Source of the DNA: Parcubacteria group bacterium Greene1014_15
GTDB taxonomy: Bacteria; Patescibacteriota; Minisyncoccia; Phycocordibacterales; VMGT01
Reading direction: 5' to 3'
Length of the DNA stretch: 48,283 nt
NCBI GenBank assembly: GCA_007376725.1
Contig: VMGT01000020.1
Coordinates: 1-48,283 of the forward strand
A program made the position numbers and the translations under genes. Position 1 is the stretch's first letter; each line of letters begins with the position of its first letter. Positions 9,086 through 42,413 of the stretch are shown here, piece by piece. The notes under the pieces are model-generated. The model was not told the origin of the DNA. It saw only the letters and a program-made list of their open reading frames with translations, and made no database searches.

Positions 9086-9446
9086 AGGCCTCGTTGATCA
9101 GCAATTCCCCAACTTCCAAATAATGGCTTAAAATAACGAGTTTTTGGCACTCCATTCGTAGATTTTTGTTAAAAATTTGCCTAAAATAGAGCACTTTTTA
9201 CTACAAGAAACTCCGATTTCATGGCTTTACTTCGAACTATCTGAAAAATTACAACACAGAATTCTTAAGACTGTCGAAGTTGGGGAATTGCTGCTCGTTG
9301 ATTAATAACTTGACATGATTCGGTTTCAGATTTCCGTAAGATTTCATTTTTTCGATTGAACAAATCTTGAGGCGTAGCAAGCTACGATGAAAGAAAGATT
9401 GCGGAAATATGGAAGCGAAACGGGCAAGTTATTCATCAACGAGGCC
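9086..9446. mobile_element. inverted-repeat element B, interrupted by element A
   Basis: AGGCCTCGTTGAT at 9086-9098 is complementary to the right end (9434-9446). After the insert at 9099-9302 the left arm resumes as TAATAACTTG (9303-9312), pairing with CAAGTTATTC at 9425-9434. Without the insert the element is about 158 bp. Its core (about 9330-9420) is nearly identical to the core of the element at 24771-24939, in opposite orientation, including a GGCGTAGC..GCTACG hairpin, although the outer arms differ. The right end touches the stop codon of the gene at 9447. Confidence 0.7.
9099..9293. mobile_element. 195-bp inverted-repeat element A with 9-bp target duplication
   Basis: CAGCAATTCCCCAACTTC (9099-9116) and its exact complement (9276-9293) bound A/T-rich sequence without a gene. 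CTCGTTGAT occurs directly on both sides (9090-9098 and 9294-9302), the signature of a 9-bp target-site duplication inside the left arm of element B. Confidence 0.75.
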
Positions 9447-12337: not shown

Positions 12338-12470
12338 TAGGACTTACGCATGTGAGCGTCTTTGCGAGGTACTCCGAAGCAATCTAGAATTCGTGAGGTC
12401 TAAGAGTAAGCCTGGATTACTTCGCGCAAAGCGCTCGCAATGACGAAAAGAGTGATTTGCGTAGGTCCTA
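12338..12470. mobile_element. 133-bp CTTACGCA-type inverted-repeat element
   Basis: TAGGACTTACGCA at 12338-12350 and TGCGTAGGTCCTA at 12458-12470 pair with one mismatch. The interior has a second hairpin of the GCGAGG...GAAGCAATCTAG / CTGGATTACTTCG...CTCGCAATGACG type, the same internal hairpin as in the element at 34273-34429. No clear target duplication. 12221-12337 otherwise holds only upstream sequence of the minus-strand gene. Confidence 0.7.
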
Positions 12471-20530: not shown

Positions 20531-20604
20531 GTGTCATTCCCGCGAAGGCGGGAATCTAGAACTCTACTGAACAACCTGGATTCCCGCCTTCGCGGGAATG
20601 ACAC
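20531..20604. repeat. REP-type palindrome (TCATTCCCGCGAAGGCGGGAAT)
   Basis: Perfect 26-base arms (20531-20556 and 20579-20604) around a 22-base loop. The arm itself contains CCCGCGAAGGCGGG. This sequence type is widespread in bacterial genomes as a dispersed repeat. It lies between convergent transcripts. Confidence 0.85.
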
Positions 20605-24770: not shown

Positions 24771-24939
24771 AGGAACCATACCAAAATAATTTCCCAATCT
24801 CGCTTTCATCTTTCCGCAATCTTTGATTTTTTCTCAATCACAAATCTTTCATCGTAGCTCGCTACGCCTCAAGATTTGTTCAATCGAAAAAATCAAATCT
24901 CACGAAAATTCTCAGGAAAGTTATTTTGGTATGGTTCCT
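24771..24939. mobile_element. 169-bp inverted-repeat element, AGGAACC ends
   Basis: AGGAACCATACCAAAATAA (24771-24789) and its exact complement (24921-24939). Just inside is TTTCCCAATCTCGCTTTCATC on the left (AATCTCGCTTTC motif). The core matches element B (9303-9446) almost base for base in reverse orientation, apart from about 20 extra bases, while the arms differ. The right edge overlaps the stop codon of the gene at 24938. Confidence 0.8.
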
Positions 24940-33457: not shown

Positions 33458-33483
33458 AAACAACCGCCTTCCGGCAGTTGTTT
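33458..33483 (-). terminator. terminator hairpin of map
   Basis: AAACAACCGCC and GGCAGTTGTTT pair with one mismatch around TTCC. On the minus strand TCTCCACATTTTT follows. It overlaps the map stop codon. Confidence 0.6.
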
Positions 33484-34252
33484 AGAACAGAGTCAGTATT
33501 TCAGGAACATCATCCGTAATGAGAATCGTATGCTCAAAGTGAGCGCTCCGTTTCCCATCAACTGTTTTCCATGTGTATCCATCGCTATCAAGCTCAATAT
33601 TCCGCGTTCCCTCATTAAGCATCGGCTCTATTGCAAGCACCATGCACGGCAAAAGTTTTGGTCCTTTCCCTACAGTTCCGACATTTGGAATGTAGGGCTC
33701 TTCGTGCACATAGTGTCCAACACCGTGCCCACCAAGTTCTTCAACAATACCGTACCCAAGCGGCCGGGCGTATGATTCAATCGCCGCACCAATATCTCCG
33801 ATCCTTTTGCCGCCTTTCGCTGCGTTAATGCCACACATAAGCGCTTCTTCTGTAGTATACAAAAGTTTCTGCGCCGCGCGATCAATCGTGCCAACAGCAA
33901 CCGTCTTTGCCATATCTACAACCAAACCTCTGTGTATAAGGCCGATATCAATGCCAACAATATCGCCATCAGCAAGTATTTTCGGATGTTCGTTTGGGAT
34001 ACCGTGTACCACTTCATCGTTTACTGAAACACACAGTGTCGCAGGAAACGGACGGTTCGCGCCATATGGTTTGTAGTTGAGAAATGCGGCTTTGTCGCCT
34101 CCTGCCACAATTTGATCATGCGCAATTCGATCAAGAACAGCCGTACTCACGCCAGGATGCACTTCTGCTATCACTGTATTGAGAACAACCGCGAGGCGGC
34201 GTCCGGCTTCGCGCAAAATCTCTATCTCATCCGGCGTCTTTACCATGCTCAT
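33482..34252 (-). CDS. map: methionine aminopeptidase, type I
   Basis: 256 residues (254 if ATG 34246 is used). Metal ligands visible: DIVGIDIGLIHRGLVVDMAKT (both Asp), GHGVGHYVHEEP (His), VLAIEPML (Glu) and the final AHFEHTILIT (Glu). It removes the initiator methionine from new proteins. Last gene of adk-pyrH-map, which normally follows secY. An element (34273-34429) lies between it and pyrH. Confidence 0.96.
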   Translation of the reverse strand: MSMVKTPDEIEILREAGRRLAVVLNTVIAEVHPGVSTAVLDRIAHDQIVAGGDKAAFLNYKPYGANRPFPATLCVSVNDEVVHGIPNEHPKILADGDIVGIDIGLIHRGLVVDMAKTVAVGTIDRAAQKLLYTTEEALMCGINAAKGGKRIGDIGAAIESYARPLGYGIVEELGGHGVGHYVHEEPYIPNVGTVGKGPKLLPCMVLAIEPMLNEGTRNIELDSDGYTWKTVDGKRSAHFEHTILITDDVPEILTLF

Positions 34253-34272
34253 AGTTTTTTAAGGATGAATCA

Positions 34273-34429
34273 CTCACCTTACGCAATAATATGAATGTTT
34301 TTCCGTCATTGCGAGGGCGAAGCCCGAAGCAATCTAGGATTACGTCAAGAAACTCTGGATTGCTTCGGGCTTCGCCCTCGCAATGACAAGTATAGATAAT
34401 CTCATACAACTCATATTGCGTAAGGTGAG
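34273..34429. mobile_element. 157-bp CTTACGCA-type element at the pyrH-map junction
   Basis: CTCACCTTACGCAATA at 34273-34288 and its exact complement at 34414-34429. TGAATCA occurs directly on both sides (34266-34272 and 34430-34436), consistent with a 7-bp (or 8-bp) target duplication. The interior is a near-perfect REP hairpin (CGTCATTGCGAGGGCGAAGC... / ...GCTTCGCCCTCGCAATGAC). Removal restores a pyrH ending in HP followed by TAA six bases before map. Confidence 0.85.
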
Positions 34430-35118
34430 TGAATCACGGTACCGACGAACTCTTCACCACGCAAATACTTTTCCACGTTTTCAATATTTTTTCCATTCAA
34501 AATTGCCACTTCAATGCCAATGGCCTCTGCACGCGCCGAAGCAACAGGATCAAAGGGTGCATGCAGGCCCGGATCCCACTCCATAGGTATTAATTTCCGA
34601 TATTCTCCCCATGTAATATCTTTGATCGGTTTCGCATCTCCATGTTGCTTCGGATCTTTATCGTACGCAAAATCGATATTTGAGAGATTCACAATTTTCA
34701 TTGCATGTAATTTTTCTGCAAATTCCACTGCATCAAGATCAGAACTCGAACCCGGAGCATACGCTCCGCCCATGATGACTTTTGCGTCAATCCCATCTAA
34801 TTCTTCTGGCCTGTTGACAACTTCACCGTATGCAAGCTCTTTGCAAACCGTCTGAAGAAGCTTGCTATTAAGCCGAAGAGCATAGATGCCGATCCAGTCA
34901 AGATCTTCTTTCGTTGTTTCTGTGAGTTCTTTGGCGACATTTTGATATTTGCGGCATGTTCTGCCGCCTCCAACGACAATCATGAATCGTTTGCCTTCCG
35001 CGACAAAACGAGCGATCATCTCGCGAAATAATCTCAAAAATTCCGTATCAACTTCTTCCGGCACGACAAGCGAACCGCCAAGCGATATGACGATTGTTTC
35101 TTGTTGCTCGTTATTCAT
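34411..35118 (-). CDS. pyrH: UMP kinase, archaeal-type
   Basis: 235 residues. ISLGGSLVVPE (phosphate-binding glycine loop), FMIVVGGGRTCRKYQ, DWIGIYALRLNSKLL and NIDFAYDKDPKQHGDAK. It phosphorylates UMP to UDP with ATP. The sequence is nearer the archaeal-type branch than the E. coli one, as is usual in CPR. The last residues (SPYAI) and the TGA stop are encoded by the end of the inserted element at 34273-34429; the start codon ATG 35118 lies within the target duplication of the other element (35127-35245). No SD remains upstream. Confidence 0.93.
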   Translation of the reverse strand: MNNEQQETIVISLGGSLVVPEEVDTEFLRLFREMIARFVAEGKRFMIVVGGGRTCRKYQNVAKELTETTKEDLDWIGIYALRLNSKLLQTVCKELAYGEVVNRPEELDGIDAKVIMGGAYAPGSSSDLDAVEFAEKLHAMKIVNLSNIDFAYDKDPKQHGDAKPIKDITWGEYRKLIPMEWDPGLHAPFDPVASARAEAIGIEVAILNGKNIENVEKYLRGEEFVGTVIHSPYAI

Positions 35119-35126
35119 ATTCTATA

Positions 35127-35245
35127 TGACTTACGCACTTGAGTGCAGTTTGAGGCGCGAGCGAGGCTTGCGACCAAGCTGTATTTCCTATACAGCGCGG
35201 GAACAAACGAGCGAAGCAACGAAGAAATGCGCCAAGTGCGTAAGT
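35127..35245. mobile_element. 119-bp CTTACGCA-type element at the adk-pyrH junction
   Basis: TGACTTACGCACTTG at the left and CAAGTGCGTAAGT at the right. CATATTCTATA is repeated directly at 35116-35126 and 35246-35256, an 11-bp target duplication that contains the pyrH start codon (left copy) and the adk stop codon (right copy). Removing the element leaves a three-base gap between adk stop and pyrH ATG. Confidence 0.85.
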
Positions 35246-35251
35246 CATATT

Positions 35252-35842
35252 CTATAGTTTGAGAGCAGTTGCAATATCTTTCGCAACATTTTCGATCGAC
35301 TGCTCACCATTGATATCGATAAAGTTATAATAAGCATGGCTCCGAAAATATTCGATTGCCGGTTTGGTCTCCGTATCGAACCAGTCAAGCCTCTTTGAAA
35401 TTCCGGCGGCGGTGTCATCATGTCTACCACGCTCGCTGAGGCGGTCAGTTGCCCACTCTTGCGACACATTGATATGCACCACATCCGGCCGTTCCCGTTT
35501 ATAGAACTGCAATGCGCCATCAAAAACAAGCGCTTCCGCATATCTGCGCACAAGGCCATCGCAAAAAAAGTGCTCATTCCCGGTCATATTTTTGATCAAC
35601 AGCCCTGTCCATATCCATATCGGCAAAAATTCAGGTTGAAGGCCTCCCGTTTCCATAATCTCCCGTGCAAGCGTGCTCGTGTATGAATCTTCCTCAACAA
35701 ATGTGCGAAATTCATTGCCGGTTTGGATATAAAAAAGAGACCTTTCTTGGTCCTTTTGTGCAAACAAATCACGCAAGAGGTCCAGCTGTGTCGTCTTCCC
35801 CGATCCCGAACGTCCATAGAATATAATGGTGCGCAGTTGCAT
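35252..35842 (-). CDS. adk: adenylate kinase-family protein
   Basis: 196 residues. P-loop GRSGSGKTTQL (residues 9-19), NMP-binding region with GNEFRTFVEED, FFCDGLVRR (the DG-R site of adenylate kinases) and the lid RLSERGRHDDT, which retains the Arg and DD pattern of a short lid. It sits after secY in the order secY-adk-(pyrH)-map, which supports the assignment. Substrate most likely AMP, though another nucleoside monophosphate is possible. Confidence 0.85.
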   Translation of the reverse strand: MQLRTIIFYGRSGSGKTTQLDLLRDLFAQKDQERSLFYIQTGNEFRTFVEEDSYTSTLAREIMETGGLQPEFLPIWIWTGLLIKNMTGNEHFFCDGLVRRYAEALVFDGALQFYKRERPDVVHINVSQEWATDRLSERGRHDDTAAGISKRLDWFDTETKPAIEYFRSHAYYNFIDINGEQSIENVAKDIATALKL

Positions 35843-35884: not shown

Positions 35885-36066
35885 AGGGCTCGTTAAAAAA
35901 TTAATTCCCAATCTCGCGCACACTGCGCAGCCATCTCCAACTCGTGCTCACTCGCAAAACCACTCGTTGTATCGGAATACAACTCGGGTTTCGCTCATTC
36001 CGCGCCAAGTCGTATTTGACCGCGCATTGTGCGTGATCTTTGGGAATTAATTTTTTAACGAGCCCT
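35885..36066. mobile_element. 182-bp inverted-repeat element with 27-bp perfect ends
   Basis: The ends (35885-35911 and 36040-36066) are perfect complements, beginning AGGGCTCGTT and ending AATTCCCAA, directly followed by TCTCGC. A second inner hairpin GCGCACACTGCGCA.../...TGCGCATTGTGCG is present. It lies 42 bases upstream of the adk start. Confidence 0.8.
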
Positions 36067-36115: not shown

Positions 36116-36170
36116 GGAACCTGTCTACAATCTCGCTTTCTAGTCAAAATGGAGGTCGTAGACAGGTTCT
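36115..36170. repeat. 56-bp hairpin, miniature AGGAACC element
   Basis: AGGAACCTGTCTACAATCTC pairs with the right side GTCGTAGACAGGTTCTT. It contains AATCTCGCTTTC next to the left arm, the inner motif of the larger elements, and looks like a deleted copy. The right edge is close to the TGA at 36176. Confidence 0.65.
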
Positions 36171-36175
36171 TTTAC

Positions 36176-36287
36176 TCAATCCTCTATTGCATCTTCCTCA
36201 GACGAGGAGAGAGACCAGCCGCGACCTTCTTTGGTCAATTCTCCAAAACCAACCCAGTCGACAGCAACGGTTAATTTCTTTGATAGT
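36176..36287 (-). pseudogene. 3' remnant of an unknown gene
   Basis: A minus frame of about 36 codons reads LTVAVDWVGFGELTKEG followed by an acidic tail SSSEEDAIED and TGA. It looks like a protein C-terminus whose upstream part was replaced by the repeat array at 36285. Origin unknown; low certainty because it is short. Confidence 0.35.
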
Positions 36288-36675
36288 AATACGGGAGTAA
36301 TACGGTAATACGGGGGTAATACGGGGACAGTCACCGTAATACGGGTAATACGGGGTAATACGGGGTAATACGGGGCATACGAATACGGGGACAGTCACCG
36401 TATTTATTTCACCGATAATACGGGGTACGGGGTAATACGGTCTAATACGGGGTAATACGGGTAATACGGGTAATACGGGTAATACGGGTAATACGGGTAA
36501 TACGGGGACAGTCACCGTATTTATTTCACCGATAATACGGGGTACGGGGTAATACGGTAATACGGGGACAGTCACCGTATTTATTTCACCGATAATACGG
36601 GGACAGTCACCGGATAATACGGGGATAATACGGGGACAGTCACCGTATTTATTCACCGTATTTATTTCACCGTAT
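36285..36675. repeat. REP array of RAYT: TAATACGGG units and GGGGACAGTCACCG cores
   Basis: About 390 bp of short irregular units (GTAATACGGG and variants, over twenty) separated by six copies of GGGGACAGTCACCG, four followed by TATTTAT or ATAAT. Spacing is not regular. The array touches the stop codon of the RAYT gene. Inverted copies of the same core lie on its other side (37378-37530). Confidence 0.9.
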
Positions 36676-37365
36676 TTATTTCCTCTTCACATTCTTTGAA
36701 CCCTTTGGTCTTCCACCCTCTCGCAAAGTTGCATGCAATTTGTGTTCATCAACCATCATATTCACCCAGTCATTAGAACCAAAAGGCGCACCTTTGTTCA
36801 CCGATGTCCTGATACCTGTGGTTATATCTTCTTTGTCTTGCGTATTCACCCATGCACCGTAATTCGTGGGTAATGGTGTGGGTCCTTTTGAAAGCATCTT
36901 CTGCAACTTTGGAGTACCTCTAGCTCTGATCCACCCGCTCCCCCATCTCCAGTCCTCTACCTTGCGCACAAGACCTGCACGCACCGGATTGCGTTCCACA
37001 TATTTAATGACTGTCAGTAAATGAGCGTCTTTTTGGATAATGAAAGACTTATATCTTCCTTGGTAGAGCGGGCCAGTGCCGGTTGTCTTGGTAACGGTGT
37101 GCATTCTCCGCGTGTGTGCATTGGTGAGTAGGTGCATGAATGTTTTCATGTCCCCTTCTTTCTCGGGGAACAACACGAGGTGCCAATGGTTGGGCATGAG
37201 AGTGAATGCGAGTACATGCATGCCTGTTTTCTCTTGTGTGCGAATGAGCAAATCCATGAACAGTTGGTAGTCTTTTTCGTTTCTGAATATGCGCGTTCTA
37301 CCAACGGCGCGATTGATAACGTGATATGGAGTTTGTGCGATATCTACTCGTGCTTGGCGCGCCAT
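36676..37365 (-). CDS. REP-associated tyrosine transposase (RAYT, Y1-type)
   Basis: 229 residues. Family motifs: YHVINRAVGR near the N-terminus, the HUH-type LMPNHWHLVL (about residue 60), GPLYQGRYKSFIIQ, VIKYVERNPVRAGLV and a basic tail GGRPKGSKNVKRK. RAYTs nick and rejoin single-stranded REP hairpins; the catalytic His pair (HWH) is present and the Tyr is likely in the region after residue 95. Arrays with GGGGACAGTCACCG flank the gene on both sides, inverted, which are probably its substrate. Appears intact. Confidence 0.9.
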   Translation of the reverse strand: MARQARVDIAQTPYHVINRAVGRTRIFRNEKDYQLFMDLLIRTQEKTGMHVLAFTLMPNHWHLVLFPEKEGDMKTFMHLLTNAHTRRMHTVTKTTGTGPLYQGRYKSFIIQKDAHLLTVIKYVERNPVRAGLVRKVEDWRWGSGWIRARGTPKLQKMLSKGPTPLPTNYGAWVNTQDKEDITTGIRTSVNKGAPFGSNDWVNMMVDEHKLHATLREGGRPKGSKNVKRK

Positions 37366-37377
37366 GCGATTACTATA

Positions 37378-37530
37378 TCATAAGTATACGGTGACTGTCC
37401 CCGTATATGACCCCGTATATGTCCCCGTATACCCCGTATATTAAGTCGGTGACTGTCCCCGTATATCCGTATATGCCCCGTATATGTCGTATATCCTGAC
37501 CCCGTATATCCCGTATATCCGTCGTATGGC
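37378..37530. repeat. right-hand REP array, inverted
   Basis: Two copies of CGGTGACTGTCCCCGTAT (about 37388 and 37446) with further CCCCGTATAT units. They are the complement of the array on the other side of the RAYT gene. The left edge follows the RAYT start codon by about 13 bases. Confidence 0.85.
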
Positions 37531-37703
37531 CAGGTCGCTTGAGTGCGTACGTGATCGTTGCGACGACTCCTTTCAAGAAATCGTCTACGAAACAATATAT
37601 TGCTATCAAAATGGTGTCGGAATGTTGTGCCAGAGTCATAATGGTTGTTGATTATACTTTTATGGCTCTAGTATAGCATTCTTTGCCTATCGTGATTCGG
37701 GTT
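37524..37703 (-). mobile_element. IS left-end remnant with a truncated transposase start
   Basis: On the minus strand: an end starting AACCCGAATCACGATAGGC (37703 leftwards), a short leader with a CCAGAG/CTCTGG hairpin, then ATG at 37639 beginning MTLAQHSDTILIAIYCFVDD and ending FLKGVVATITYALKRPGH where the REP array starts. The VDDF..K...KRPG pattern resembles the N-termini of some DDE transposases (IS982-like), from memory only. The first ~100 bases recur at 47281-47386. The outer end lies in the 3' end of the SnoaL-like gene. Confidence 0.6.
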
Positions 37704-42354: not shown

Positions 42355-42413
42355 AACTGTGAATTACGAAACTCCCGCACACACCTGCTGCGGGAGTTTC
42401 GTAATTCACAGTT
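42355..42413. repeat. perfect palindrome, ACTGTGAATTACGAAA family
   Basis: 24-base perfect arms (42355-42378 and 42390-42413) around an 11-base loop (ACACACCTGCT). Inner part of each arm is AAACTCCCGC. Same sequence in part at 52-95; the outer arm motif recurs at 47383-47534. Confidence 0.9.

Follow-up and report, generated by a model that had tools for sequence, protein, structure and literature searches.

MITEAba12 is a MITE that is moved by an insertion sequence (IS) with matching ends (PMC6382973). Among the IS elements themselves, IS701 produces a 4-bp target duplication (PMC2266710), and a 5-bp repeat is characteristic of ISAba11 (PMC7885321), an IS701-type element of Acinetobacter. The literature on MITEs in Patescibacteria yielded a single passing mention and nothing of relevance. 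The genomes of these bacteria are tiny and tight, so that elements thriving between essential genes reveal where DNA is tolerated. A different point of reference is the integron attC site, in which the folded strand is antisense to the gene, which lies at stop codons and whose structure is kept better than its sequence.

Here, we analyzed a window of 48,283 nt (contig VMGT01000020.1), the whole stretch of DNA to which all coordinates below refer, from a host genome that is a draft in 55 contigs and is placed in the Patescibacteria on the basis of named PyrH relatives. Both gaps of the adk-pyrH-map operon in this window contain a short insertion, here called element A (adk-pyrH) and element B (pyrH-map). 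It is well supported by their ends, their copies, their target duplications and the empty junctions of a relative that both features are MITEs. Our main reading, to which we assign a probability of about 85%, is that A and B belong to two families of MITEs moved in trans by DDE transposases, that the enzyme for A was of the ISAba11/IS701 type, and that one strand of the core of A probably folds.

Two insertions in the adk-pyrH-map operon

The operon lies on the minus strand, with map (methionine aminopeptidase, assigned by sequence) at 33482-34252, pyrH (UMP kinase) at 34411-35118 and adk (adenylate kinase-like, assigned by sequence motifs and operon position) at 35252-35842. Element A (35125-35249, plus strand) is a 125-bp MITE with a structured core, termed R0, whose purine-rich strand is the plus strand and is antisense to the operon. 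Its left terminal inverted repeat (35125-35142, plus strand) reads TATGACTTACGCACTTGA, the family consensus being TAGGACTTACGCA, and its right one occupies 35233-35249 on the minus strand. The target duplication TTCTA, which reads TAGAA on the coding strand, is located at 35120-35124 on the pyrH side and at 35250-35254 on the adk side, where it includes the adk stop codon TAG (35252-35254). Element B (34273-34429) is a 157-bp MITE with CTCACCTTACGCAA ends, inverted repeats at 34273-34288 and 34414-34429 and a core with a TCATTGCGAGG...GCAATC hairpin. As the first-pass annotation had stated, it is flanked by TGAATCA, at 34266-34272 on the map side and at 34430-34436 on the pyrH side. That annotation was also right that B rewrote the PyrH tail: the protein now ends in GTVIHSPYAI, with the final residues SPYAI and the stop codon supplied by the element, and the joined flanks restore GTVIHP and a TAA, leaving six bases to the map ATG. 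Both junctions are occupied, in line with its view that the elements entered the few non-essential bases separating three essential genes.

The borders of element A required correction. An 11-bp repeat, CATATTCTATA, had been taken as its target duplication; the repeat is exact, but the borders, fixed by comparison with sister copies in the same genome, fit a duplication of 5 bp and rule out one of 9 or 11 bp. The remaining six bases are element ends that coincide with the target sequence, and the joined flanks are identical whether 11 or 5 bp are read. The proposal that the two elements are related did not survive either: the two differ in duplication length (5 versus 7 bp), in their ends and in their core. 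Duplication length and core rule out a single family, and A and B have little in common beyond CTTACGCA near their ends.

Close copies are numerous in the host genome, with about 17 of A (family members there being 123 to 133 bp long) and more than 20 of B. Exact flush duplications were counted for all lengths between 3 and 10 bp, and pairings of a left flank from one copy with a right flank from another served as the control. For the A family, an exact 5-bp duplication was present in 13 of 22 host-genome copies and in 14 of 36 copies from other fetched loci (0.14 expected in each set); for the B family, 6 of 13 copies, one of the 13 from another genome of the same taxonomic family (G002), had an exact 7-bp duplication (0.17 expected). 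These peaks at 5 and 7 bp lie far over expectation and indicate insertion by transposition, as had been claimed, by two different machineries. The check proposed in the first-pass annotation, a search for other copies with 7- to 11-bp duplications, was borne out as to the copies, with duplications of 5 bp in family A and 7 bp in family B. Chance palindromes or an assembly artefact are also refuted, since many genomes contain such elements, in dozens of copies at loci that are unrelated, and the length of the duplications is fixed; this is a reading of negligible probability for which only the fragmentation of the draft into 55 contigs could be cited.

The invasion of two adjoining junctions, which the first-pass annotation had highlighted, is not special in itself, since the non-coding DNA of the window contains at least nine short inverted-repeat elements. 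By a strict scan, which gave 0 to 3 such clusters in shuffled sequences, the window contains 12 short inverted-repeat clusters, nine of which are non-coding. Further non-coding elements of this kind lie at 9099-9293, 9294-9443, 20531-20604, 24771-24939, 36117-36169 and 42355-42413. Upstream of adk, a third inverted-repeat element of 182 bp (35885-36066) has 27-nt perfect ends, AGGGCTCGTTAAAAAATTAATTCCC, and its interior (35917-36033) gives a weak match of 30.1 bits to the structured core on the minus strand.

Empty junctions in a relative and a probable source of the transposase

In a genome of the same genus (G001; PyrH 74% identical), the order adk-pyrH-map is kept and both junctions are empty, with gaps of about 13 nt, which makes the insertion history readable. 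Without the elements, the window is predicted to read CTCAAACTATAGAATATGAATAAC at adk-pyrH and GTGATTCATCCTTAAAAAACTATG at pyrH-map. Over the two junctions, its joined flanks align with G001 at 114/146 and 103/142 identities, with gaps of only 1 to 7 nt. The prediction that relatives would have matching empty sites was thus borne out for the empty state of both junctions but not for the exact protein ends, since PyrH and Adk of G001 end in GSVLHS and LKLSV and the predicted ends were HP and KL. The alignment supports the reconstruction, in which the exact ancestral bases are beyond proof. G001 carries an A element of its own immediately upstream of adk, with the duplication AGATA, and the pyrH-map gap of G002 holds a different dispersed repeat (L066, 2185-2325), a second copy of which is 84% identical. 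The gaps of adk-pyrH-map are used repeatedly by elements.

Of the 397 genomes of the order, 30 contain the TAGGACTTACGCA ends of family A, at up to 83 per genome, and a reversed-pattern control was near zero. The highest load seen, 83 exact ends, is in a 0.7-Mb genome (G347), in which a search for an IS701 transposase found none. A distant relative (G379) has an intact 1,049-bp element with the same 13-bp ends on both sides and a 323-amino-acid transposase that scores 347 bits against the NCBIfam IS701 model (cut-off, 250). Furthermore, three loci of a viral collection contain 1,101-bp elements whose ends are identical and whose 5-bp duplications are exact (TAAAG, AACTC and GAATA). One of the three, L143, was compared further and matches copies on Acinetobacter plasmids, of which two are annotated "IS701-like element ISAba11 family transposase." The end consensus of the family agrees at 13/13 positions with the G379 element and the ISAba11-like elements, and the window copy of A agrees at 12/13. 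The canonical 4-bp duplication of IS701 does not apply here, the length being 5 bp, as for ISAba11. Ends and duplication length thus strongly support mobilization of element A by a transposase that would be of the ISAba11 type. The interior of A is unrelated to the IS701-type element of the order and did not arise from it by deletion, the core model having no match in the G379 element (L290) at an E value of 0.01.

Neither a protein search nor model NF049921 found an IS701-type transposase in the host draft genome. For B, no element of 600 to 2,500 bp with CTCACCTTACGCAA-type ends was present in the fetched loci and no longer paired copy among the matches listed in the 397 genomes; B ends are nearly restricted to the host genome and G002. 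Two further routes to a parent were tried. A DDE_Tnp_1 search of five genomes returned IS982 and IS5-like fragments in the host and two unrelated hits in another genome (G025), none with A or B ends, and the A- and B-end patterns gave mostly chance matches in viral contigs, yet pointed to ISAba11. Other transposase genes were also observed. An IS982-family transposase (132 bits) lies at the end of host contig 4 (L136), and the window open reading frame at 37376-37639 has its first ~30 residues in common with it. A REP-associated tyrosine transposase (NCBIfam NF047646, 80.5 bits) is encoded at 36676-37365, with dense GGGTAATACGGGGACAGTCACCG repeats on both sides (36270-36690 and 37385-37600).

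According to the mechanism that we propose, A and B would be short DNA transposons that are non-autonomous and rely on trans-acting DDE transposases for cut-and-paste movement. For A, an IS701-type transposase would have bound its 13-bp ends and cut the TTCTA at the adk stop codon with a stagger of 5 bp; one copy of the duplication would then serve as the adk stop, and the pyrH start would stay intact. Element B, from the second family, would have generated its 7-bp duplication and swapped the last residue of PyrH for SPYAI. Such insertions may persist because the bases between a stop codon and the next ribosome site are nearly the sole neutral DNA of such an operon. Since no IS701-type transposase was found in the host genome, the A copies look either orphaned or moved by a visiting element, and the enzyme presumably came from outside that genome.

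A folded core with a preferred orientation

A-type ends bracket at least three interiors: the R0 core, a TCATTCCCGC hairpin and a TCATTGCGAGG hairpin, the last of which B has as its core too. At 12338-12470, for instance, the window has an element with TAGGACTTACGCA ends and a TCATTGCGAGG-type core, that is, the same ends with different cargo. An alignment of 20 diverse R0 copies revealed GATGCAGTTCGAGG and AACGAAGAAATGCGCC as conserved boxes, together with a hairpin that covaries, with 18 of 36 pairs compensatory and a covariation of 0.293, compared with 0.142 for shuffled and at most 0.062 for slid pairings. In a phylum-wide alignment, 34 of 36 pairs were compensatory (covariation, 0.652; shuffled, 0.194; slid, at most 0.098), although this alignment was fitted to a covariance model and leans towards structure, whereas the 20-copy alignment was not so fitted. 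The covariance model from the 20 copies scores element A at 137.6 bits on the plus strand and 42.1 bits on the minus strand and, in a search of 287 genomes from across the phylum, has matches in 28. Scores of about 30 bits are also attained by unrelated palindromic elements that share the ends, so that matches below about 40 bits are doubtful; at 43 bits or more, the core is present in about 24 of the 287 Patescibacteria genomes, from about 18 families. The copies considered are the best matches, with E values that are rough. The longest open stretch in any of them is 49 amino acids.

No Rfam 15 covariance model matched 35125-35249 at E values up to 1; matches to mir-3479 and MIR5638 were judged spurious, these being microRNA hairpin models that scored under their gathering thresholds. 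Viral contigs contained no convincing match to the core (best, 22.4 bits). In a genome of another class (G665), seven core copies of about 175 bp have IS701 ends, and exact 5-bp duplications flank 4 of the 6 listed copies as judged by eye. Many of the phylum-wide copies have other outer stems, no IS701 ends and no clear duplication, and the MITE reading of core copies is proved only where ISAba11-type ends are present. The core of element A (about 125 nt) is a previously undescribed phylum-wide family whose fold and orientation at gene ends are conserved, an old module that did not originate from the single IS found in Patescibacteria.

Purine-purine internal loops are conserved on one strand, with purines kept among 57 rows at columns 29 (R, 55/57), 183 (R, 57/57), 57 (A, 56/57) and 157 (G, 53/57), and wobble pairs on the purine-rich strand exceed their mirror images (29 G-T versus 5 A-C; 86 versus 35 in a further count). 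These observations bear on the proposal that the covariation is a by-product of hairpin repair, in which template switching between the arms copies changes from one to the other without selection on structure. The window copy of A indeed has the same change at both ends (TATGAC/GTCATA in place of the TAGGAC/GTCCTA of the family). However, hairpin repair would erase purine-purine mismatches, which persist in nearly all rows, and it predicts no strand preference for wobble pairs or orientation, so that we regard it as improbable.

Placement was counted for 79 core copies, with genes from a simple open-reading-frame caller. Among the 72 outside called genes, the purine-rich strand was antisense to both flanking genes in 47 and sense to both in 6 (binomial P of about 3e-9); 10 lay between genes pointing towards the element from either side and in effect convergent (>E<), and 9 between divergent genes (<E>). 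Where the gene on the right opposes the element (n = 57), its stop codon is -8 to +4 nt from the element end in 40 cases, while 3.7% of random non-coding positions are within 5 nt of a stop. Element A fits this pattern, with the adk stop 2 nt away and its purine-rich strand antisense. The B family also tends to sit close after stop codons, and stop adjacency is therefore partly a matter of where insertions are tolerated. The orientation bias of the A core is not accounted for by such tolerance and would not be predicted for a simple palindromic MITE.

A site directly after stop codons is also what would be expected if the elements were kept for a role in mRNA, as hairpins that end, insulate or stabilize transcripts. 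The operon-strand folds are very stable (-93.3 kcal/mol, z of -14, for the RNA of element B, and -51.2 kcal/mol), and some copies have terminator-like outer stems (L341 and L350). Nevertheless, it is the mRNA-antisense strand that has the wobble excess, most copies are flanked by co-directional genes rather than sitting at convergent ends, and no T-run follows A or B in the operon direction, which makes this role an unlikely one.

Taken together, covariation, purine loops, wobble direction and orientation support the view that the folded strand matters. Most likely, folding of the purine-rich strand is required during some stage in the life of the element, and the folded form might be single-stranded DNA or an antisense RNA. 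A tentative extension, for which we hold rather less than even odds, is that A belongs to a class of folded mobile elements spread across the phylum, in which the antisense strand must fold, a strand-specific process orients copies at stops and IS701-type ends are one of several vehicles. It is similarly possible, but again short of probable, that the core is a structured element with a function of its own, the operon-antisense strand folding either as an antisense RNA or, in the manner of attC sites, as a single-stranded DNA substrate for recombination or transposition, and the IS701-type ends serving as only one vehicle. The 47-to-6 orientation, the 40 of 57 stops at the element end, the purine loops retained in nearly all 57 rows, the absence from Rfam 15 and the spread over about 24 of the 287 genomes, with different outer stems in many cases, are in favor of such a function; on the other hand, copies with ISAba11-type ends insert as ordinary transposons do, the B family, though unrelated, also shows a degree of stop adjacency, and an attC-like identity is contradicted by the boxes considered below.

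Comparison with known mobile elements

Like integron attC sites, the core of A has a folded strand antisense to the gene, a site at stop codons and a structure conserved over sequence. However, the attC boxes RYYYAAC and GTTRRRY were present at the core ends in 0 of 154 strand readings, which rules out attC identity, and unlike for integrons, no cassette arrays were seen and A-type copies have transposon duplications. The dRS3 and Correia repeats of Neisseria are likewise dispersed inverted repeats, and the TCATTCCCGC...GCGGGAAT core of some A-type elements may be dRS3-like; element A itself has another core.

A close relationship is to ISAba11, which has the same 13-bp ends, TAGGACTTACGCA, on both sides and a 5-bp target duplication; ISAba11 is 1,101 bp long with a transposase gene, whereas element A has 125 bp and no gene. 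In being short and gene-less, with inverted repeats and a target duplication, A resembles bacterial MITEs such as MITEAba12. Unlike these, it has a core that covaries across the phylum, strand-specific purine loops and an orientation bias at stop codons. This conserved folded module, found in about 18 families, absent from Rfam and with a strong strand and position bias, would, if real, be either structured mobile DNA of a new class or a new RNA.
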